A stretch of DNA of 7,022 nucleotides from Victivallales bacterium (GTDB taxonomy: Bacteria > Verrucomicrobiota > Lentisphaeria > Oligosphaerales > Oligosphaeraceae): positions 1 to 7,022 of the forward strand of contig JAFZZD010000419.1 in the NCBI GenBank assembly GCA_017615955.1, read 5' to 3'. Position 1 is the stretch's first letter. Each line of letters starts with the position of its first letter. The position numbers and the translations under genes are program-made. Shown here one piece after another: positions 1 through 7,022 of the stretch. The notes beneath the pieces are model-generated. The model was not told where the DNA came from. It saw only the letters and a list, made by a program, of their open reading frames with translations, and searched no databases.

Positions 1-15
1 GGTCACGCGTCCTGA

Positions 16-36
16 CGCGCGGCCAATGGCCGCGCG
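16..36. repeat. GC-rich perfect hairpin upstream of the DJ-1-like gene
   Basis: A 9-bp perfect inverted repeat, cgcgcggcc (16-24) and ggccgcgcg (28-36), with a three-base loop. A competing smaller stem is possible between cgcgt (6-10) and acgcg (15-19), so the two structures are mutually exclusive. No T-tract follows, so this is not a standard intrinsic terminator. It could be the tail structure of a gene that ends outside the window, a dispersed palindrome, or a leader structure. I cannot tell which. Confidence 0.55.
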
Positions 37-55
37 GAATAGCGTGCCTTCAAAA

Positions 56-75
56 CGCTGGGCTTTCGCCCAGCG
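56..75. repeat. 8-bp hairpin with a four-base loop before the DJ-1-like gene
   Basis: Perfect stem cgctgggc (56-63) and gcccagcg (68-75) around a tttc loop. It ends about 40 bases before the chosen start codon at 115. The base after the stem is not followed by a run of T, which argues against an intrinsic terminator. With the hairpin at 16-36 it makes a doubly structured region between the upstream unknown gene and the DJ-1-like gene. Confidence 0.5.
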
Positions 76-114
76 CACAAGACAGTCCATTAAGAAAAAA
101 TGAGGTGCAAAACA

Positions 115-660
115 ATGTTAGGTAAAATTGCAGTTTTTTTGGCGGAAGGCTTTGAGGAAATCGAGGCAGTCACTCCCATTGATGTATTGAGGCGCGCAGG
201 CTTTGATGTAGTGAGCGTAGCCATTGGGGACATGCAGGATGTGCAGGGCGCACATGGCGTTCGCTACGTGGCTGATGCCTTTGTTGACGAGATAAAGGCC
301 AGTGATTTCTGCATGTCGGTATTTCCTGGTGGACTGCCAGGCGCAACGAACTTGGCCGCTGACGAAAGAGTACTTGCCTTCGCAAGGGACGTATATGCCA
401 ATGGCGGCATTGTGTCGGCCATCTGCGCTGCGCCGATTGCGATTGCAGCCGCAGGTTTGCTGGATAGTGCGGAATACACCTGCTATCCTGGCTTTGAAAA
501 ACAGATTGGCGGCGCATACACAGGCAATAGAGTATGCGTCAGCGGCAGGATCATCACTGGCTGCGGCCCAGGGGCCTCACTTGAATTCGCCATGGCACTA
601 GTCCAGGCATTGGGCAAAGATCCATCCCAGCTGAAACAAGGCATGCTGGCGGCAAATTGA
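115..660 (+). CDS. DJ-1/PfpI (ThiJ/YajL-like) family protein
   Basis: A 181-residue protein of the DJ-1/PfpI superfamily, which includes the chaperone or deglycase-type proteins human DJ-1 and E. coli YajL. The length matches those single-domain, flavodoxin-like proteins. The nucleophile-elbow cysteine is Cys104 in the segment IVSAICAAPIAIAAAGLL. The acidic residue that tunes it in DJ-1 (Glu18) corresponds to Glu17 in EGFEEIEAVTPIDVLRRAG. The C-terminal GPGASLEFAMALV segment matches the family GPGTS-EFA motif. Two in-frame ATGs exist, at 100 and 115. I prefer 115 because a gaggtg Shine-Dalgarno-like sequence (102-107) lies seven bases before it and the family N-terminus starts with the first beta strand right there. 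The protein is probably cytoplasmic, since no signal peptide is seen. Its exact activity (stress chaperone, deglycase, hydratase-like) cannot be read from sequence. It stands alone, with an AT-rich gap after it. Confidence 0.9.
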   Translation: MLGKIAVFLAEGFEEIEAVTPIDVLRRAGFDVVSVAIGDMQDVQGAHGVRYVADAFVDEIKASDFCMSVFPGGLPGATNLAADERVLAFARDVYANGGIVSAICAAPIAIAAAGLLDSAEYTCYPGFEKQIGGAYTGNRVCVSGRIITGCGPGASLEFAMALVQALGKDPSQLKQGMLAAN

Positions 661-765
661 AGAGGACATTGCAGTACTCTACGTCGTTGAATAGCCCATT
701 GCTTTCCCTATATTTAAATAAAGCTTTTTTGAAATATCATGAAATAATATACTGTTCCTTATCAC

Positions 766-794
766 TTGCTTTATGATATTTAAATTATCATAAT
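766..794 (+). promoter_or_regulatory. Candidate sigma-70-type promoter with overlapping operator-like palindrome
   Basis: A weak -35 box TTGCTT (766-771) and a good -10 box CATAAT (789-794, five of six consensus bases) are separated by 17 bases. The inverted repeat ttatgata (771-778) / tatcataa (786-793) fills the spacer and overlaps both boxes, the usual placement of a repressor operator. Transcription would start near 800 and give a leader of about 80 bases before the ORF6N start. The assignment rests on motif matching only, and AT-rich DNA often yields chance matches. Confidence 0.4.
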
Positions 795-820
795 AATAAT
801 TTCTCAATTTTAGCGTTTAA

Positions 821-843
821 TGTTATCAATGACCTAGATAACA
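821..843. promoter_or_regulatory. Inverted repeat in the leader of the ORF6N gene
   Basis: Seven-base perfect arms tgttatc (821-827) and gataaca (837-843) are separated by nine bases. The arm spacing suits binding by a dimeric regulator on successive turns of the helix. It sits about 40 bases before the ORF6N start codon and about 30 bases downstream of the promoter-overlapping palindrome. The ORF6N protein itself is a candidate ligand, but that is inference. Confidence 0.35.
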
Positions 844-880
844 CAAGACAATAAGATTGTGCAAAGCAAGTGAGGCAATA

Positions 881-1513
881 ATGAGGAAGAACGAACATAA
901 AACGGAAAGTAAAACCAAGATTGAGGGAGTGGCCTATGCCAATGCAATCTCGTACGGAGAAGTCAGGCAGAAAATAATAAGCATTCGCCAGCAATCCGTA
1001 ATACTTGATTCAGATGTTGCCGAATTATATGGTGTTGAGACAAAACGTGTGAATGAGGCTGTCCGAAATAATCCTGACAAATTTCCAGCAGACTATATGT
1101 TTGAATTGACGGAGGAGGAAACTAGTTTTTTAAGGTCGAAATTTTCGACCTTAAAAGGCACAGGCAGACATTCCAAATACAAGTATAAGGCCTTCACAGA
1201 AAAGGGGCTTTATATGCTGGCGACGATTCTCAAAAGCAGACAGGCGACAATGGCTACATTCGCCATAATAGAGACATTTTCGAAAGTTCGTGAACTCCAG
1301 CAGGAGCTTGTGGATTTGCACAATGAGAGCGACAAAAACAAGCAGATAGGCAAAATGCATCACTTCGGCGAGATGCTTGCTGACATTGTTACGCCAGAAA
1401 TGGAAACTGTTGAAACCGAATCCACACTTGAATTAAACTTCATTGTCGGAAAGCTCAGTCATACTGTAAGACGAATCAAAAAGGCAAAAGAACAAGGAGA
1501 TGAGGAATCTTAA
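881..1513 (+). CDS. ORF6N-domain (phage KilA-N/Bro-like) DNA-binding protein
   Basis: A 210-residue protein. Residues about 28-120 form an ORF6N domain (Pfam PF10543), recognisable from ISIRQQSVILDSDVAELYGV, VNEAVRNNPDKFPADYMFELT and KAFTEKGLYMLATIL. This domain is common in phage and bacterial accessory regions and is thought to bind DNA. Residues about 130-160 are a likely amphipathic or coiled helix (FSKVRELQQELVDLHNE). The tail ends in a basic then acidic stretch (VRRIKKAKEQGDEES). An in-frame TTG at 857 could extend the protein by eight residues. I chose ATG 881 because a gtgagg sequence (870-875) lies five bases before it. The gene is AT-rich compared with its neighbours, suggesting horizontal acquisition. 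Its coding sequence contains a 29-base palindrome over codons 83-92. No phage structural genes are nearby, so it looks like an isolated accessory gene. Its target and role are unknown. Confidence 0.85.
   Translation: MRKNEHKTESKTKIEGVAYANAISYGEVRQKIISIRQQSVILDSDVAELYGVETKRVNEAVRNNPDKFPADYMFELTEEETSFLRSKFSTLKGTGRHSKYKYKAFTEKGLYMLATILKSRQATMATFAIIETFSKVRELQQELVDLHNESDKNKQIGKMHHFGEMLADIVTPEMETVETESTLELNFIVGKLSHTVRRIKKAKEQGDEES
1128..1156. repeat. 14-bp-arm palindrome inside the ORF6N coding sequence
   Basis: Perfect 14-base arms (1128-1141 and 1143-1156) flank a single central base at 1142. The core is ggtcgaaa-t-tttcgacc. In frame it encodes residues F83 to K92 of the ORF6N protein (L-R-S-K-F-S-T-L within it). 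A second palindrome with the same core, in reverse-complement form, lies at 1523-1549. Confidence 0.85.
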
Positions 1514-1514
1514 A

Positions 1515-1620
1515 AATGATGATTTGCGGTCGAAAATTTCGACCGCAAACTCATGGTCATTCCCAAATGCCTTTAAACATAAAGGAAATGGCATCCGAAT
1601 TAATAAGGCGAGTAGTGTCA
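1515..1620 (+). pseudogene. Possible remnant of a second ORF6N gene
   Basis: Right after the ORF6N stop, the frame running from 1500 encodes DLRSKISTANSW followed by FPNAFKHKGNGI. This resembles the mid-part of the ORF6N domain: the upstream protein has FLRSKFSTLKGTG and then KAFTEKGLYML, and family members commonly show LRSK-STSSW followed by PxAFTExG. The match is short. The N-terminal half of the domain is absent and similarity fades after about 1600. The open frame ends at 1700 without further family features. It could be a decayed tandem paralogue or a chance extension around a mobile palindrome. A functional short protein starting at ATG 1500, which overlaps the ORF6N stop, is possible but unsupported. 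Confidence 0.35.
1523..1549. repeat. 13-bp-arm palindrome just downstream of the ORF6N gene
   Basis: Perfect 13-base arms (1523-1535 and 1537-1549) flank a central base at 1536. The 17-base core ggtcgaaaatttcgacc is the exact reverse complement of the core at 1134-1150. No T-tract follows, so it is not a canonical terminator, although it lies ten bases after the ORF6N stop codon. It reads LRSKISTA in the same register as the copy inside the gene. Confidence 0.85.
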
Positions 1621-1704
1621 TTTTCATCGCATTTGTTTGGAATTATGGTGAAACAAGGTACATTAGGCGCGATTTGCCAAGAATTGTTTTAACACAATAA
1701 AAAG

Positions 1705-1710
1705 AAGGAG
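1705..1710 (+). promoter_or_regulatory. Shine-Dalgarno site of the M24 gene
   Basis: An aaggag hexamer lies seven bases before ATG 1718. This is a strong ribosome binding site and fixes the start of the M24 gene. Confidence 0.8.
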
Positions 1711-1717
1711 AGAAGAA

Positions 1718-2872
1718 ATGTCCATATTGACACAGGCGGAATTTGTTTCACGTGTCGCAAAGGTGCAGGCCGCCCTTGCAAAGACGGATCTGGATGCGGT
1801 GCTGGTGTTTTCAACAGAGTCGGAGCCAGCGGGCGTTCGCTATTTTTCCGATTACTGGCCCAGCTTTGAGACTGCGGGCGTCCTCATTCCACGCAGCGGC
1901 GAGGCTGCATTGGTGATTGGCCCTGAAAGCCTGACTTTCGCCACCGCACGCTCCAAGATCGCCAAGATAATCCAGACCATGGACTTCCGTGAATCCTCAC
2001 AGCCTGACTATCCTGGCTCCACGCACCCCGACTGGAAGAAGATTCTCTCCAGCTTTGGCGTGAAGAAACTGGGCATTGCTGGCTTCCACATGTTCCCGTA
2101 CACCATAATGATGAATGTGTGCGATGCGCTGGGCGGCATGGAGCATATCGTAAATGCGGATGCCATGCTGCACGCAATCTACATGAAGAAGTCCGCCTTG
2201 GAACTGGACTGCCTGCGCAAGTCGGCGAAAATCTCCGAGCTGGGATTCAAGGCTATTCTGGAGAACATCAAGCCTGGCATGACAGAGGCGGAACTGTGCG
2301 GCATTGCGACGGAGGCCATGCTTTCAGGCGGCGCGGAGGCCACTGGATATCCAGTATGGTGCTGCTCAGGCCCCAATTCAGATCAGGCAATCAGCCGCCC
2401 CACCCTGCGCAAGGTGGGCACTGGCGAAATCATACACTTCAGCATTGGCGCCAAGGTGGAGGGCTACAGCTCCAGCATCGGGCGTCCTGTCGTCCTTGGC
2501 AAATGCCCTGATGAAATACGCAGATTCATGCAGGTGGGACTGGATGCCCTGAACATGACATTCGACAGCATGAGGGCGGGCGTACCAGCAGCCGATGTGG
2601 CAAAGAAGGTGCATGGCTACATCACCGACAAGGGTTATGGGGATGCAATCCTGTACGGTCCAGCGCATGGCTGCGGCCAGATGGAATGCGAATACCCATT
2701 CCTGGAAACATCATCAGACTACATCCTGGAGGAGAACATGACATTCATGGGCGATGTGTTCCTGCACCGCAACAACATGGGCTTCCGCTGGGAGGACGGC
2801 CTGATTGTGCGCGCCAATGGCCCAGCCGAGGAACTCTCCAGCTACGGTCGCCAGATTAACATCATTGAATAA
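1718..2872 (+). CDS. M24-family (creatinase/Xaa-Pro peptidase fold) protein with degenerate active site
   Basis: A 384-residue cytoplasmic-looking protein with a creatinase-type N-terminal domain (about 1-150) and a pita-bread C-terminal domain (about 160-384). The segment SGPNSDQAISRPTLRKVGTGE (217-237) aligns with SGINTDGAHNPVTTRKVNKGD of Pseudomonas creatinase. Aligned by eye to aminopeptidase P, the two metal aspartates are Ser242 (IHFSIGAK) and Ser253 (GYSSSIGRP). The histidine ligand is kept as His317 (GPAHGCG), the first glutamate becomes Asp346 (MTFMGDVF), and the last is kept as Glu359 (FRWEDGLIV). The position of creatinase His232 is Ile225. The protein therefore should not be a standard two-metal peptidase, nor a standard creatinase. 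It may have a different reaction, or be a binding or regulatory homologue. The start is set by aaggag seven bases upstream. The amidohydrolase gene follows 101 bases later on the same strand, suggesting a shared pathway. The substrate is unknown. Confidence 0.85.
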   Translation: MSILTQAEFVSRVAKVQAALAKTDLDAVLVFSTESEPAGVRYFSDYWPSFETAGVLIPRSGEAALVIGPESLTFATARSKIAKIIQTMDFRESSQPDYPGSTHPDWKKILSSFGVKKLGIAGFHMFPYTIMMNVCDALGGMEHIVNADAMLHAIYMKKSALELDCLRKSAKISELGFKAILENIKPGMTEAELCGIATEAMLSGGAEATGYPVWCCSGPNSDQAISRPTLRKVGTGEIIHFSIGAKVEGYSSSIGRPVVLGKCPDEIRRFMQVGLDALNMTFDSMRAGVPAADVAKKVHGYITDKGYGDAILYGPAHGCGQMECEYPFLETSSDYILEENMTFMGDVFLHRNNMGFRWEDGLIVRANGPAEELSSYGRQINIIE

Positions 2873-2882
2873 TGCGTTGTAT

Positions 2883-2949
2883 TTATCCACAGATTGACGC
2901 AGATTTTCACAGATTCAATCTGTGTTAATCTGTGAAAATCTGTGGATAA
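2883..2949. repeat. Palindromic repeat with two inverted consensus DnaA boxes
   Basis: Outer perfect arms ttatccacagatt (2883-2895) and aatctgtggataa (2937-2949) enclose an inner hairpin cacagatt (2908-2915) / aatctgtg (2917-2924). The octamer cacagatt occurs twice on the + strand and three times on the - strand within 67 bases. Each outer end is a perfect TTATCCACA DnaA box (2883-2891, and inverted at 2941-2949). Similar nested 'ATCTGTG' repeats are, to my recollection, dispersed between genes in several bacterial phyla. It occupies most of the gap between the M24 and amidohydrolase genes and ends 24 bases before the latter's start. It could form a long mRNA hairpin there. Confidence 0.8.
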
Positions 2950-2958
2950 TAAAAAGAG

Positions 2959-2965
2959 AAAGGAG
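2959..2965 (+). promoter_or_regulatory. Shine-Dalgarno site of the amidohydrolase gene
   Basis: An aaaggag heptamer lies eight bases before ATG 2974, a strong ribosome binding site that supports this start. Confidence 0.8.
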
Positions 2966-2973
2966 TTTGTATC

Positions 2974-3762
2974 ATGGTCATTGATGTACACGGTCATTTA
3001 GGCAATATCAACTTTTCAACTTTCTGGCAGGCGGATGCAAAGCGCCTGGAGGAATACTGCGTCCAGGCTGGGACGGACATTGTCTGCCTCTCCTCCTCAA
3101 GGGCAATCATGTACGATGTCCACGAGGGAAACATGGAACTGGACGCCGCATTGAAGGATAGCGAGCGTTTCCTGGGCTATGTGGTGGTCAGCCCAACCTT
3201 CTCTGATTCAGTGAAGGATTTGTCCCTGCTGCAAAGCAACAGCAAATTCAAGGGCGTGAAGATACACCCCGACTACAATGGATATGTGCTGGCAACAAAG
3301 TCCAACCGTCGTTTTGTGGAAGAAGTGGCGGACAAGACGCCAATGATGCTTTTCCATGTCTCATGCATGCCTGGCACTGGCTTCTCGGATCCGCTGGTGG
3401 TAGCCTCCATAGCAAAGAACCATCCAGGAACCAAGTTCATTCTGGCGCACATGGCAGGCACATACCAGAACGGCAATTACCCATATTTCCCCAACATGGA
3501 CAGCTTGGAGGCGGTCATGGACATGAACTTGGACAATGTATTCATCGACACCGCACACTACCTTATGTACGTGTATCCTGGTGTAATGGAGAAGATGCTG
3601 TCAATCTGCGGTGCGGACCATATCGTCTATGGCACAGATGTGCCCTTGCAGGGTCCGATGCAGATGCGTTTCGCCAGAGAGGTCATCGAGGCATTGCCCA
3701 CCTCCCAGGAAAACAAGGACAAGATCCTTTTCAAGAACGCCCAGAAGGTTCTGGGAATATAA
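2974..3762 (+). CDS. Amidohydrolase-family (amidohydrolase 2, TIM-barrel) metal-dependent hydrolase
   Basis: A 262-residue protein with the layout of the amidohydrolase-related family (Pfam PF04909), which includes metal-dependent hydrolases and decarboxylases. The strand-1 metal motif H-x-H is His6 and His8 in IDVHGHLG. Further candidate ligands follow in order: His98 in GVKIHPD, His128 in MMLFHVSC, His159 in FILAHMAG, and the conserved catalytic or metal aspartate Asp222 in VYGTDVPL. The full set is present, so the enzyme is probably active. There is no signal peptide, so it should be cytoplasmic. It lies downstream of the M24-like gene in the same direction, separated by the palindromic repeat, and the two may be co-transcribed. 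The substrate cannot be inferred: the family covers amide and ester hydrolysis, lactonases and decarboxylases. The stop codon is immediately followed by a compound inverted repeat separating it from the convergent mannosidase gene. Confidence 0.88.
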   Translation: MVIDVHGHLGNINFSTFWQADAKRLEEYCVQAGTDIVCLSSSRAIMYDVHEGNMELDAALKDSERFLGYVVVSPTFSDSVKDLSLLQSNSKFKGVKIHPDYNGYVLATKSNRRFVEEVADKTPMMLFHVSCMPGTGFSDPLVVASIAKNHPGTKFILAHMAGTYQNGNYPYFPNMDSLEAVMDMNLDNVFIDTAHYLMYVYPGVMEKMLSICGADHIVYGTDVPLQGPMQMRFAREVIEALPTSQENKDKILFKNAQKVLGI

Positions 3763-3914
3763 GTAGTAGCGACGGCCTTAGCGCAGCGTACCCCGCCGTC
3801 GCACCAATGGTGTGCATTTTGCTAGGAGTGTGCAACGATAGCGATGTGCAACGGGCAAACCTCCTTACGAGAGGCGTGCCTTTGGTGCGACGGCGAGGAC
3901 GCCGTCGCTACTAC
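3763..3914. repeat. Compound inverted repeat of the gtagtagcgacggc family filling a convergent gap
   Basis: The element begins at the base after the amidohydrolase stop and ends two bases before the mannosidase stop. Its ends are perfect 14-base inverted repeats, gtagtagcgacggc (3763-3776) and gccgtcgctactac (3901-3914). A second perfect 14-base pair lies inside: cgccgtcgcaccaa (3794-3807) and ttggtgcgacggcg (3882-3895). Each half is itself a hairpin unit. The right one has a compact loop (stem 3887-3895 / 3900-3908) and the left one an enlarged loop of about 18 bases. About 74 bases lie between the units, including a direct repeat of tgtgcaacg (3829-3837 and 3845-3853). The arrangement resembles paired REP units or a small non-coding mobile element. 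It could act as a structured 3' end for both converging transcripts, but no T-tracts are present. Confidence 0.85.
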
Positions 3915-3916
3915 AA

Positions 3917-6900
3917 CTAGCGTATCATAAACGTCTTTATCTCAAACGGCTTTATTGTGAATGTGGCCTGTCCATTGCGGAATGGGATTGTCTTTAGTTC
4001 GTTCCATTCCAGCAGGTCGGTTTCGATGAGTTTTTTGGCGGGAATGTTGCTGTGAATTGTGCAGTTTGCCTGCACACCCTTTGTTTCCACAATGCGGAGC
4101 ACATGGCAGTCCTGTTTTTCGGCGCGTTTGACAATTTCCAGCGTGGCACTGTCGCTTTCCAGGCGGAATGGGGCCTCTACGGTGGCCTTGTATCCAGGCA
4201 GCAGTGTGGGAACTCTGTTCAGTGAGGCGGCCTCCTGCATTACGTCTGATTCCTGTAGGTTGCCTGTATGTGGCAGGAGACTGTATGTGCAGGTGTGCTC
4301 TCCCCTGTCGGCCAGCGGGTCTGGATATGATGGTGCCCTGAGCAGCGTCAGCTCCAGTTCGCCGTTGATGGTGCGGTATCCGTATTTGCAGTCGTTAAGC
4401 AAAGCCACGCCGTAGTCGCTCTCCGATATGTCCACATAGCGTTGCCCGCAGACCTGGAACTTCGCCTTTTCCCAGCTGGTGTTTGTGTTCATGGGGCGTT
4501 TCAAGGTGCCGTACTGTATGTCGAAGGAGGCCTCGCTGGCGAATATATTCACAGGGAACACCACCCGCAGCAGCTTGTTGTCCTCATTCCAGTTGATTTT
4601 CGTGTTGAAGTCCAGTCGCTTGGAATGTGCACCTAGCGTGACATGCTGAATTATGCTGGAAGTGCCAATTCTGAACCTTATGTCCAGGCTGCGCAGCACT
4701 GTGCCGAGGCTGGCGTTTGAGACACTTGCCTCTTCCGAGTGCCACTGCCGCTCCTCGTCCATTGTGATTTCCACATCCCAGGCATCGAAAAGATTGGGCA
4801 CATCCTCCTGCAAAGTGAACACATTGCCATGCTTGCCAGGCGACAGTATTTCCCTGCCCTCCTGCTTGTCGTAGGCGGAGCATATTTCGCCCATGGCATT
4901 GAATACGTATTTCACCAGGGCATTCTCCAGCGTATAGGCGCCCTTTTTGACCTTTGCCGGATGGCATTTCCCGCCGCGGCGGATAGTTGTGATTGAATTT
5001 GCAGGAAGGTGCGCCAGGGCGACATAGCCATCTTCCGTGCCTTGCACTTCAGATTCAAAGCCATCGGGCGAAACGACATAGTTGTTTTTCCATGTGGCGG
5101 GGATACTGATGATGCCCTTATACGCATAAGGCAGCGAATTGACAGCCAGTATTGCATTCTTGTCCTTGTCTCCGAGTTGCGGGAGACGCTCCTCAATAAG
5201 CTGCCTGACTTGCTCCCGCAGTGCCGCATGCTCCTTTTCAGTGTCTTCATAGACCAGGCGTATGGAGCTGCCAGGTATCACATCATGGAACTGCAATTTC
5301 AGCATATTCTTCCAGATGCTGTCAAGTTGCGTGGCTGGATACTTTTCCAGCGGCAGTGAGGAGGCGATGAATTCCAGTGCGGGCAATGCCTGCTCCAGTC
5401 GCCTGTTGTTCAGTTTTGTCTTTGCCTGGGTGGTCAATGTGCCGCGGTGCAATTCCAGGTACAATTCCCCCTTCCATACGGGCAATTTGTCCTTCAGTTT
5501 CTCCAGTTTCCTGAAGAATGCGCCTGCCTTGCCGAACTTGTAGCGTGGGCAGCCTTCCAGATTGGCAATGCGTTTTGCGCATTCCAGGTGCTGCATGCTG
5601 GGACCTCCGCCGCCGTCGCCTATGCCGAACAGGCTCATCATCATGGGCGCGATGTCCGCCTCGGTGCAGTTGTTCTGCGCCGCGCTAACGGAACGTGGCA
5701 GGCAAGGGGCGTTGTATGTGTTCTCTGGCGGGAAATGCGTCAGCACCTGTGAGCCATCAATGCCCTGCCAGACGAATGAGTGGTATGGGAATGTGTTGAA
5801 CTGGTTCCAGGAAATCTTCTGCGTCAGGAAATAGTCGCAGCCCGCCTTGCGTATGATTTGCGGCAGCGTGGCGGCGTAGCCGAACACGTCCGGCAGCCAC
5901 AGGCTCTTCACCTCCACACCGAACTCGTCCTTGAAGAAGTTCTTTCCATGGATGAATTGCCTTACCAGTGATTCGCCATTGATGATGTTGCAGTCCGCCT
6001 CCACCCACATTCCGCCTTGCAGTTCCCAGCGTCCTGCCTTCACGGCCTCCTTTATGCGGGCGTAGAGTTCGGGATAGTGCTCCTTGACGAAGGAATACAG
6101 CACTGGCTGCGATGCACCAAACACATAGCCTGGGTAGTTCTTTATGTTGGTGATCTGGCTGCCGAAGGTGCGGGCGGCCTTCCTGATGCTTTCACGCATG
6201 GGCCACAGCCATGCCACGTCGATGTGCGCATGGCCTATGGCAGTGGCCTCGATGGCGGACTTCATCGCGGGACGCGCCAACAGCGGCGCCAGTTCCGCCC
6301 GCACATCCGCCGCGTTTGCGGGATTGTAGGCATACACATCTACAGCGCGGTTCAGTGCCGACAGCAATTGCAGGCGGCGGTAGTCGCCGTCGGGCAGACT
6401 CTCGTACAGGTCAAACAACACGCTGAAGTCATAGTAGAGGCTCCATGCCTCCTCATTGAATACGCCCACACGCATCTTGCGCATCAGCACAGGCACGTAC
6501 CCCCTGCTCTCGCCCCCGCCATTGGACAGGCCGAACAGCTCGTATGCGGATGCCTCTATCCACAGTTCCAGTTTCCCGTTCTTTACTCTGCCAGGCTCTG
6601 GAAGATACAGGTCCTTCAGGTAGCCGCCATCGTATGCCGAATGAGATGTGAGGGACCATTCAGGCACGCCTTCCTCATCGAATACCAGTGCCTCGCCAGT
6701 GAAAAGTATCTCGCAGGCAAGCTTCTTGTTTTTCCATTGTGGCGGCAGTTTTGCGATGCAGTGGAACCATGCGCTGTCCCATGGCCTGCCCCAAGGAATA
6801 TTTGGCGCAATCGGAACGTATTGCAGCTTTAGCCTGTCCTTGTAGGGTGTGAATTCATTCTCAACCGCAAACTCCACCGTGAAGTCCACGGCCTCGCCAA

Positions 6901-6973
6901 TGCGATGGGACTTGATGCGCGGCAAGAACATCTTGCACCGTGTCGTGTAGAATTTGATTTCTTCTTTCAGCAT
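3917..6973 (-). CDS. Alpha-mannosidase, glycoside hydrolase family 38
   Basis: A 1018-residue GH38 retaining alpha-mannosidase, similar in length and layout to the cytosolic/vacuolar branch (human MAN2C1, yeast Ams1). An N-terminal beta region (about 1-240) precedes the catalytic barrel (about 243-510). The zinc motif is in IGHAHIDVAWLWP (His250, Asp252). The nucleophile aspartate is Asp362 in SLWLPDVFGYAATLPQI. Other family segments are ELQGGMWVEAD (317-327), GIGDGGGGPS (450-459) and ELHRGTLTTQ (507-516), whose His509 is a candidate metal ligand. The helical linker carries QFHDVIPGSSI (561-571), and beta-sandwich domains of the GH38 C-terminal type follow. No signal peptide is seen, so it probably acts inside the cell on imported mannosides, releasing mannose. 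The start has only a weak ribosome site (ggataaag, about ten bases upstream). Met15 is an alternative start but has no better site. It is convergent with the amidohydrolase gene, and the same hairpin repeat family lies on both sides of it. Confidence 0.93.
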   Translation of the reverse strand: MLKEEIKFYTTRCKMFLPRIKSHRIGEAVDFTVEFAVENEFTPYKDRLKLQYVPIAPNIPWGRPWDSAWFHCIAKLPPQWKNKKLACEILFTGEALVFDEEGVPEWSLTSHSAYDGGYLKDLYLPEPGRVKNGKLELWIEASAYELFGLSNGGGESRGYVPVLMRKMRVGVFNEEAWSLYYDFSVLFDLYESLPDGDYRRLQLLSALNRAVDVYAYNPANAADVRAELAPLLARPAMKSAIEATAIGHAHIDVAWLWPMRESIRKAARTFGSQITNIKNYPGYVFGASQPVLYSFVKEHYPELYARIKEAVKAGRWELQGGMWVEADCNIINGESLVRQFIHGKNFFKDEFGVEVKSLWLPDVFGYAATLPQIIRKAGCDYFLTQKISWNQFNTFPYHSFVWQGIDGSQVLTHFPPENTYNAPCLPRSVSAAQNNCTEADIAPMMMSLFGIGDGGGGPSMQHLECAKRIANLEGCPRYKFGKAGAFFRKLEKLKDKLPVWKGELYLELHRGTLTTQAKTKLNNRRLEQALPALEFIASSLPLEKYPATQLDSIWKNMLKLQFHDVIPGSSIRLVYEDTEKEHAALREQVRQLIEERLPQLGDKDKNAILAVNSLPYAYKGIISIPATWKNNYVVSPDGFESEVQGTEDGYVALAHLPANSITTIRRGGKCHPAKVKKGAYTLENALVKYVFNAMGEICSAYDKQEGREILSPGKHGNVFTLQEDVPNLFDAWDVEITMDEERQWHSEEASVSNASLGTVLRSLDIRFRIGTSSIIQHVTLGAHSKRLDFNTKINWNEDNKLLRVVFPVNIFASEASFDIQYGTLKRPMNTNTSWEKAKFQVCGQRYVDISESDYGVALLNDCKYGYRTINGELELTLLRAPSYPDPLADRGEHTCTYSLLPHTGNLQESDVMQEAASLNRVPTLLPGYKATVEAPFRLESDSATLEIVKRAEKQDCHVLRIVETKGVQANCTIHSNIPAKKLIETDLLEWNELKTIPFRNGQATFTIKPFEIKTFMIR

Positions 6974-6993
6974 TTTTCTTTATCCAAGAATTT

Positions 6994-7022
6994 GTAGTAG
7001 CGACGGCGTCCCCGCCGTCGCA
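6994..7022. repeat. Further unit of the gtagtagcgacggc hairpin repeat, cut by the window end
   Basis: The 29 bases match the reverse complement of 3886-3914 with one mismatch, in the loop (tccc here against tcct in that orientation). The stem is gcgacggcg (7000-7008) / cgccgtcgc (7013-7021). It lies 21 bases upstream of the mannosidase start codon, so it could sit in that gene's promoter or leader. It may continue beyond the window. Confidence 0.85.

Follow-up and report, generated by a model that had tools for sequence, protein, structure and literature searches.

Operators that lie inside coding sequences are known, e.g., lac O2 in lacZ and the internal gal operator, where a repressor site within a coding sequence can block or loop. 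ORF6N, KilA-N, and Bro-N genes are found in phages, plasmids, and bacterial chromosomes; to our knowledge, the targets of their proteins are mostly unknown. Here, we describe a likely intragenic operator in an ORF6N gene carried by a 7,022-nucleotide (nt) stretch of DNA from a Victivallales bacterium (GCA_017615955.1, contig JAFZZD010000419.1, positions 1 to 7,022; hereafter the window). One palindrome lies inside this gene and a second one, with the same core, lies just past its stop codon. Unlike lac O2 and the internal gal operator, the ORF6N site is written into the codons that encode the DNA-binding domain of the putative regulator itself. It occupies one place of that domain in 231 of 256 genes, occurs in two reading frames, and comes in a version particular to each gene that covaries with the predicted helix of the same gene. 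A search of the open-access literature found no report of in-gene palindromes in ORF6N, KilA-N, or Bro-N genes, and no regulator family in which nearly every member has its cognate site inside its own DNA-binding-domain codons together with a readable code.

The window protein also resembles PDC-S05, a single-gene phage-defence candidate, as it and four relatives match the PDC-S05 models (5/5). Candidates of this type come from a guilt-by-embedding approach and remain unvalidated, and the accessible part of the report on them mentions no palindrome (PMC12988326). PDC-S05 is counted as abundant in rumen genomes in the accessible part of a second study (PMC13356809).

Two palindromes at the ORF6N gene of the window

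The gene, the two palindromes, and the predicted DNA-contacting parts of the protein are located as follows.

857: alternative start (TTG) of the ORF6N gene
881..1513, plus strand: ORF6N gene, 210 residues from the ATG at 881 (PF10543, E-value 6.4e-32; PADLOC PDC-S05, E-value 1.8e-76)
1040..1069, plus strand: codons of the predicted recognition helix (residues 54-63, TKRVNEAVRN), placed by an AlphaFold2 helix and by columns that covary with palindrome bases
1128..1156, no strand: palindrome 1, in-gene, proposed operator 1 (centre 1142, 14 paired arm bases, residues 83-92)
1157..1195, plus strand: codons of a variable loop and strand 3' of palindrome 1 (residues 93-105), proposed wing
1523..1549, no strand: palindrome 2, proposed operator 2 (centre 1536, 23 nt after the ORF6N stop codon, 13 paired arm bases)

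The initial annotation had described two palindromes with one core, one inside and one after the ORF6N gene, and both the coordinates and the counts of GGTCGAAAWTTTCGACC, the shared odd-palindrome core, agree with that description. The 17-base cores are exact reverse complements of each other, as it had noted; positions 1-8 of the two palindromes are identical and positions 9-10 differ, two A-T pairs of palindrome 1 being C-G and G-C in palindrome 2. Allowing up to three mismatches, GGTCGAAAWTTTCGACC matches the window at these two places only, with 0.01 matches expected, and none of 200 shuffles of the window contained two matches; the two palindromes thus lie far beyond chance. With a half-site matrix, palindrome 1 scores 28.2 and palindrome 2 scores 28.9.

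Both palindromes fall in the same codon register, L-R-S-K-[F/I]-S-T, and this reading was correct; however, the register is shared because the core itself dictates RSK[FI]ST, and any copy of the core in that frame would read the same. The initial annotation further proposed that the arm changes kept the pairing while altering the protein on the right arm. The pairing stands, but the protein change at palindrome 2 is probably not real, since only palindrome 1 lies in a gene and the 66-residue frame across palindrome 2 (1500-1700) has no Pfam match at an E-value of 1. We also considered palindrome 2 as the leftover of a second ORF6N gene (RSKISTANSWSFPNAFKHKG), which is possible but has no Pfam support.

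The PF10543 match covers residues 30-116 and the entire profile (1-86 of 86) at 110.1 bits against a curated cut-off of 27.8, and the PDC-S05 profile covers residues 22-201. A search of NCBIfam gave nothing useful, and no sequence relative was found in the PDB at an E-value of 0.001. We then examined an AlphaFold2 model built from 45 sequences (mean predicted local distance difference test score 81). In this model, residues 83-92, encoded by palindrome 1, span the last part of a helix and the first part of a variable loop modelled with lower confidence, and this stretch could be a place where the protein tolerates many peptides. The proposed wing consists of a low-confidence model loop followed by a strand (residues 103-105), and its assignment draws on survey columns 71-74, which covary with palindrome positions 8-10.

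Place and pairing of the palindrome across ORF6N genes

The core was searched in one genome per species (at least 118 stretches) and in viral contigs (38 stretches), which answered in the affirmative whether it occurs elsewhere. Among the matches listed there were 162 sites, of which 102 lie in an ORF6N-homologous open frame and 8 near one; no such frame was found for 52. The arms vary between these loci and are mostly still paired beyond the core, and the same core is read in two frames at one place of the domain, as LRSK[FI]ST and as ELVE[NI]FDRF. A near-identical site (TTTAAGGTCGAAAWTTTCGACCTTAAA) was seen in seven viral contigs (L124, L127, L136, L144, L148, L151, and L155), with no ORF6N gene found in the stretch examined.

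The ORF6N genes were also collected independently of the core, by PF10543. Among 149 genomes of one order, 60 had a match, with up to 8 matches in one genome; draws of 198, 299, 194, and 295 genomes from phyla gave 41, 41, 56, and 23 genomes with a match, and 24 core-picked genomes were added, 22 of which had one. The taxonomic draws were centred on core-found genomes, and the loci of the centre genomes were counted as core-picked. The 256 near-full domains analysed comprise the best-scoring loci and two partial further fetches, i.e., the better matches.

Of the 256 domains, 241 contain an odd palindrome in which 10 or more of the 13 arm positions are paired; among the 196 that remain without the core-picked genomes, 181 do. 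The palindromes of this smaller set have 10-13 arm pairs, occur in two reading frames, and are very different in sequence yet paired. In the full set, the place of the palindrome is nearly fixed: the centre lies at a domain offset of 183 nt in 160 of the 241, at 181 nt, in the other frame, in 20, and between 177 and 198 nt in 231, with the remaining 10 at 219-255 nt. The 15 domains under the threshold have 8 or 9 of 13 pairs. Some of them retain a peptide resembling LRSQ or LVSQ at this place, two others are fragments beginning close to or beyond it, and the domains of L412 and L362 are divergent. In phage and plasmid records, all 12 genes fetched (of 34 listed hits) carry a palindrome with at least 11 of 13 pairs.

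We next took the best palindrome within the domain of each of 240 distinct genes as its site. Arm positions 2-13 are paired in 2679 of 2880 cells, and the pairing, still 79% at position 13, is down to 54% at position 14 and 22% at position 16; the arms of ORF6N homologues therefore do stay paired, a point on which the initial annotation had staked its case. Random recoding of the same peptides with the codon usage of ORF6N genes predicts 5.5 of 13 pairs, against 11.8 seen, and 232 of the 240 genes exceed 99% of their own recodings; this null was scored at the chosen centre and not maximised over the domain. Codon choice and peptide do not account for the palindromes. An LRSQ-type peptide is indeed common in frame 0, as would be expected if a conserved peptide together with codon bias, or chance, had produced the palindromes; however, the recoding null, the two reading frames, and the 137 different 17-base cores among the 240 genes refute this explanation, whose probability we regard as virtually nil. 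The proposal that the pairing is maintained at the expense of the peptide is borne out by the survey pairing and the recoding null, more strongly than by the window itself.

The mismatches bear on whether the constraint acts on DNA or RNA. The initial annotation had listed an RNA hairpin among its options, and such a hairpin, either bound or by its folding, could control translation from the mRNA. The sense strand can form one, and pairing fails most often at the centre, the expected position of a loop (position 1 is paired in 160 of 240 genes). However, the 2880 cells contain 44 G-T and 55 A-C mismatches, i.e., no RNA-strand bias and none of the G-T excess that tolerance of G-U pairs would leave. 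Because G-T mismatches do not exceed A-C mismatches, the constraint looks like one on double-stranded DNA rather than on mRNA. In addition, the centre itself is conserved (A2 98%), no Rfam family was found at curated thresholds anywhere in the window, and no hairpin model explains either the link to helix residues shown below or the sites of the same consensus outside ORF6N domains. We therefore give an mRNA hairpin very little credence.

Covariation between the palindrome and the protein

Correlations between palindrome positions and protein columns were computed for 217 frame-0 genes (effective number 99), weighted for relatedness and with the palindrome-encoded columns excluded. The strongest pairs were position 4 with column 33 (z 16.3) and with column 30 (z 13.9), followed by position 5 with column 33 (z 9.2) and with column 30 (z 6.6), position 3 with column 37 (z 7.2), and position 7 with column 29 (z 7.0). 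A second group joins position 8 to column 74 (z 6.7), position 9 to column 71 (z 6.2), and position 10 to column 73 (z 5.5), whereas the highest z for columns outside helix and wing is about 2.4. Columns 29, 30, 33, and 37, which were matched by eye in alignment A1 to K55, R56, E59, and N63 of the window protein, share one face of model helix 54-63, and columns 71-74 map to the loop and strand beyond the palindrome.

The residue-base tables are close to a code. Glu33 goes with G4 in 59 of 59 genes, Gln33 with A4 in 89 of 94, and Arg33 or Lys33 with C4 in 54 of 56; Asn37 goes with A3 (34/34) and Arg37 with C3 (175/177), Lys29 with G7 (132/132), and, in the proposed wing, Arg73 with G10 (147/150) and Lys73 with A10 (36/39). 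These tables are not weighted for relatedness; kinship is addressed by leave-out and background-nucleotide tests. A code trained on frame-0 genes and applied to frame-1 genes was correct at position 4 in 19 of 20 (8 by majority guess) and at position 3 in 22 of 22 (15 by majority guess). When training was restricted to genes of less than 50% identity, position 4 was correct in 157 of 175 (46 by guess) and position 3 in 211 of 214 (123 by guess). Nucleotides elsewhere share at most 0.31 bit with the code columns, compared with 1.49 bits for the palindrome. The link extends to a synonymous Ser codon within the palindrome, which is TCA in 89 of 93 genes with Gln33 and TCG in 57 of 57 with Glu33; the other TCN Ser codons of the same ORF6N domains show no such choice. 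Both sites of the window have the half-site A3, G4, C5, and G7, which is what the code predicts for K55, R56, E59, and N63.

As judged from sequence, the in-gene palindrome is under DNA-level constraint, occupies a fixed place, and covaries with the protein that its gene encodes. Because its bases covary with residues of the predicted recognition helix and wing, the ORF6N protein itself is the most likely reader of the site, presumably as a dimer. Of the features expected of an intragenic operator, a palindrome conserved at the DNA level within the gene is present, and its recognition by the protein of the same gene is indicated by the covariation. Among the options of the initial annotation, the one that the link to the predicted recognition helix singles out is an operator that lies within the ORF6N gene and serves the protein of that gene.

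A hairpin under gene conversion, which had also been proposed, leaves that link unexplained. In its general form, a functionless palindrome would correct itself by hairpin-templated repair or gene conversion. Several observations fit: the arms change together, with four paired double and three single changes among eight close pairs that have different palindromes; near-perfect palindromes persist in decayed copies (L441 and L397); and truncated ORF6N matches often stop just past the palindrome. Self-correction would not, however, fix one place in the domain across phyla, hold T6 and A2 nearly invariant (97% and 98%), or tie bases to helix residues, and it appears to us no more credible than the RNA hairpin.

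We conclude, with a probability of roughly 0.8, that the ORF6N protein itself binds the window palindromes and that these most likely serve negative autoregulation. The protein would be a homodimer with a DNA-binding domain of the winged-helix type, for which a MerR/Dachshund-like fold is a candidate, and each subunit would read one half-site; the recognition helix (window residues 54-63) would set positions 3, 4, 5, and 7, and the wing encoded 3' of the palindrome would set positions 8-10. One site lies within the codons of the DNA-binding domain, about 260 nt past the start codon, and the second just beyond the stop codon. As the protein accumulates, it would cover the in-gene site and block its own transcription, either as a roadblock or, where a flanking site is present, by looping to it. 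Binding as a dimer, repression, and either of these two routes would together amount to negative autoregulation through an embedded operator, the likeliest use of the site. Because site and reader lie only about 60-120 bp apart in one gene, they would be transferred horizontally together and could change specificity together.

Further sites, related families, and other possible uses

The half-site matrix was then applied to the surroundings of the 240 genes, which yielded 108 further site-gene pairs above threshold and none in shuffled sequence. In 34 of these pairs, the site belongs to a different ORF6N domain, and in 11 it falls in the frame of the gene itself. Outside ORF6N domains, 26 of 41 upstream sites lie 26-125 nt before the domain, and 13 of 22 downstream sites lie 10-79 nt past the stop codon, like palindrome 2 of the window. 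An extra site within 300 nt was found upstream of 28 and downstream of 12 of the 240 genes; since so few genes have one nearby, such extra sites are optional, and it is the in-gene site that is the norm. The half-sites of 55 nearby sites match the gene's own at positions 3, 4, 5, and 7 in 30 of 110 cases (13.7 expected; 1 of 2000 permutations), and the remaining 80 differ at these positions.

In the Bacilli loci L420 and L409, six and four different palindromes, respectively, are arrayed after the ORF6N stop codon at distances of about 60-110 bp, and spacers of two types alternate between them. The loci are related, yet their spacers follow a different order and the palindromes at the same array position differ by paired arm changes. 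Truncated tandem ORF6N copies also occur in Bacilli. Truncated ORF6N matches (L330, L333, L195, and many others) often end at profile position 58-67, directly after the palindrome, and several KilA-N matches end at 58-59; the palindrome may serve as a breakpoint. We also looked for mosaic genes joined at the palindrome. At 75% identity, both sides agreed in 80 pairs, the left side alone in 73, and the right side alone in 93; at 90%, the numbers were 13, 2, and 1, respectively, by a shift-limited measure that also split plainly similar pairs.

Arrays with alternating spacers are also a trait of repetitive extragenic palindromic (REP) elements and bacterial interspersed mosaic elements, and the initial annotation had offered a mobile palindrome that favours this codon context; such an element would merely happen to sit in ORF6N genes. 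In line with this, such arrays adjoin some ORF6N genes, and some sites without an ORF6N gene lie in no visible remnant of one, others being within decayed copies (L441 and L003). However, no genome-wide spread of ORF6N palindromes was seen. The strict form of the site is almost restricted to ORF6N-bearing genomes (26 of 60, compared with 2 of the 89 that lack ORF6N; one genome has the reversed pattern) and occurs in 28 of the 149 genomes, with at most three copies in any one; a related form was present in one to three copies, rather than many, in each of 12 core-picked genomes. Mobility is not needed for the in-gene site, and we allow it only a slim chance as the origin of these palindromes.

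In-gene palindromes at one place of the domain, like that of ORF6N, were found in three further families, with KilA-N and Bro-N surveyed in one order, Rha in one phylum, and loci cut by contig ends left out (6 Bro-N, 6 KilA-N, and 3 Rha). Uncut KilA-N loci (PF04383) have at least 11 of 13 pairs in 23 of 24 cases, in an even palindrome around CGAATTCG; a larger set gave 50 of 52, although it is biased, since its genes were selected through a peptide motif encoded by the palindrome itself. Bro-N (PF02498), chosen as a negative control, reaches 10 or more of 13 pairs in 16 of 24 uncut loci, at offsets of 150-160; it shares the feature and so provides no control, and no other family was surveyed as a clean one. 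The case of Rha (PF09669), taken from another phylum, is weaker than those of KilA-N and Bro-N: 14 of 27 uncut loci have an even palindrome (CAATTTTG) with at least 10 of 13 pairs, at offsets of 101-108. The centre is thus even in KilA-N and Rha, whereas it is odd in ORF6N and Bro-N. In the larger KilA-N set, bases 5-7 go with residues spaced like one face of a helix (N with T5 in 26 of 28, K with C5 in 11 of 11, and D with G5 in 5 of 6), in an unweighted correlation where some columns away from the helix-like group reach z 3.7-6.4.

The ORF6N protein may also bind its in-gene palindrome for another end, namely the exclusion or silencing of incoming copies, incompatibility of plasmids or satellites, or an anti-phage function. 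The match to PDC-S05 and its abundance in rumen genomes point this way, as does the patchy, multi-copy occurrence of the gene described above. One ORF6N gene is on a 2,955-bp Segatella copri plasmid beside a replication gene, these two being the only genes in a table that may be incomplete; on the small Segatella copri plasmids L576 (NZ_CP152354.1) and L577 (NZ_CP152486.1), the listed genes are replication initiation and an ORF6N gene with its in-gene palindrome. Some long ORF6N forms (285-336 residues, e.g., L004:2871-3758) have a C-terminal PLD-fold domain with an HDRxxxxD motif and no Pfam match of its own, where the usual PLD motif has H-x-K. The archaeal regulators TrmB and TrmBL2, which have a PLD-fold domain, were among the matches of a modelled long form, which is predicted to have a helical linker and a C-terminal PLD fold; the window protein lacks this domain. 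Against a use other than autoregulation, no target outside ORF6N genes has been shown, and the neighbouring genes of the window look metabolic from their translations, judged by eye. We consider such a use possible but unlikely.

More tentatively still, the in-gene palindrome may be an identity tag across ORF6N, KilA-N, Bro-N, and Rha, with lock and key combined in a single domain of each gene; the proteins would recognise and silence DNA of the same allele, resident or incoming. If there is such a tag, these solo genes would be modules of self- or kin-recognition that govern copy number, incompatibility, and phage or plasmid takeover, with a readable amino-acid-to-base code.

In Bacteroidales, paralogues of one genome showed no avoidance of the same code (10 of 62 pairs; 10.3 expected); in core-picked genomes it was weak (8 of 80 against 13.9 expected, with 34 of 1000 shuffles as low), and we do not claim it.

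Elsewhere in the window, GTAGTAGCGACGGC-type repeats at 3763-3776, 3886-3916, and 6992-7022 flank a long minus-strand gene (3917-6973), their 31-nt inverted arms being 97% complementary. Between two genes, at 2883-2949, CAGATT-type repeats form an imperfect inverted repeat of 33 nt whose arms are separated by 1 nt.

Returning to the ORF6N palindromes as sites of the protein encoded around them, if each gene holds its own protein's site, the DNA targets of many unstudied phage and plasmid regulators could be read from their gene sequences, and a large natural set of protein-site pairs would supply a recognition code that can be tested. The ORF6N genes would also exemplify, in several phyla, how a DNA-binding site can shape the peptide encoded by the sequence in which it lies, and the in-gene site would give a concrete handle on the function of PDC-S05.
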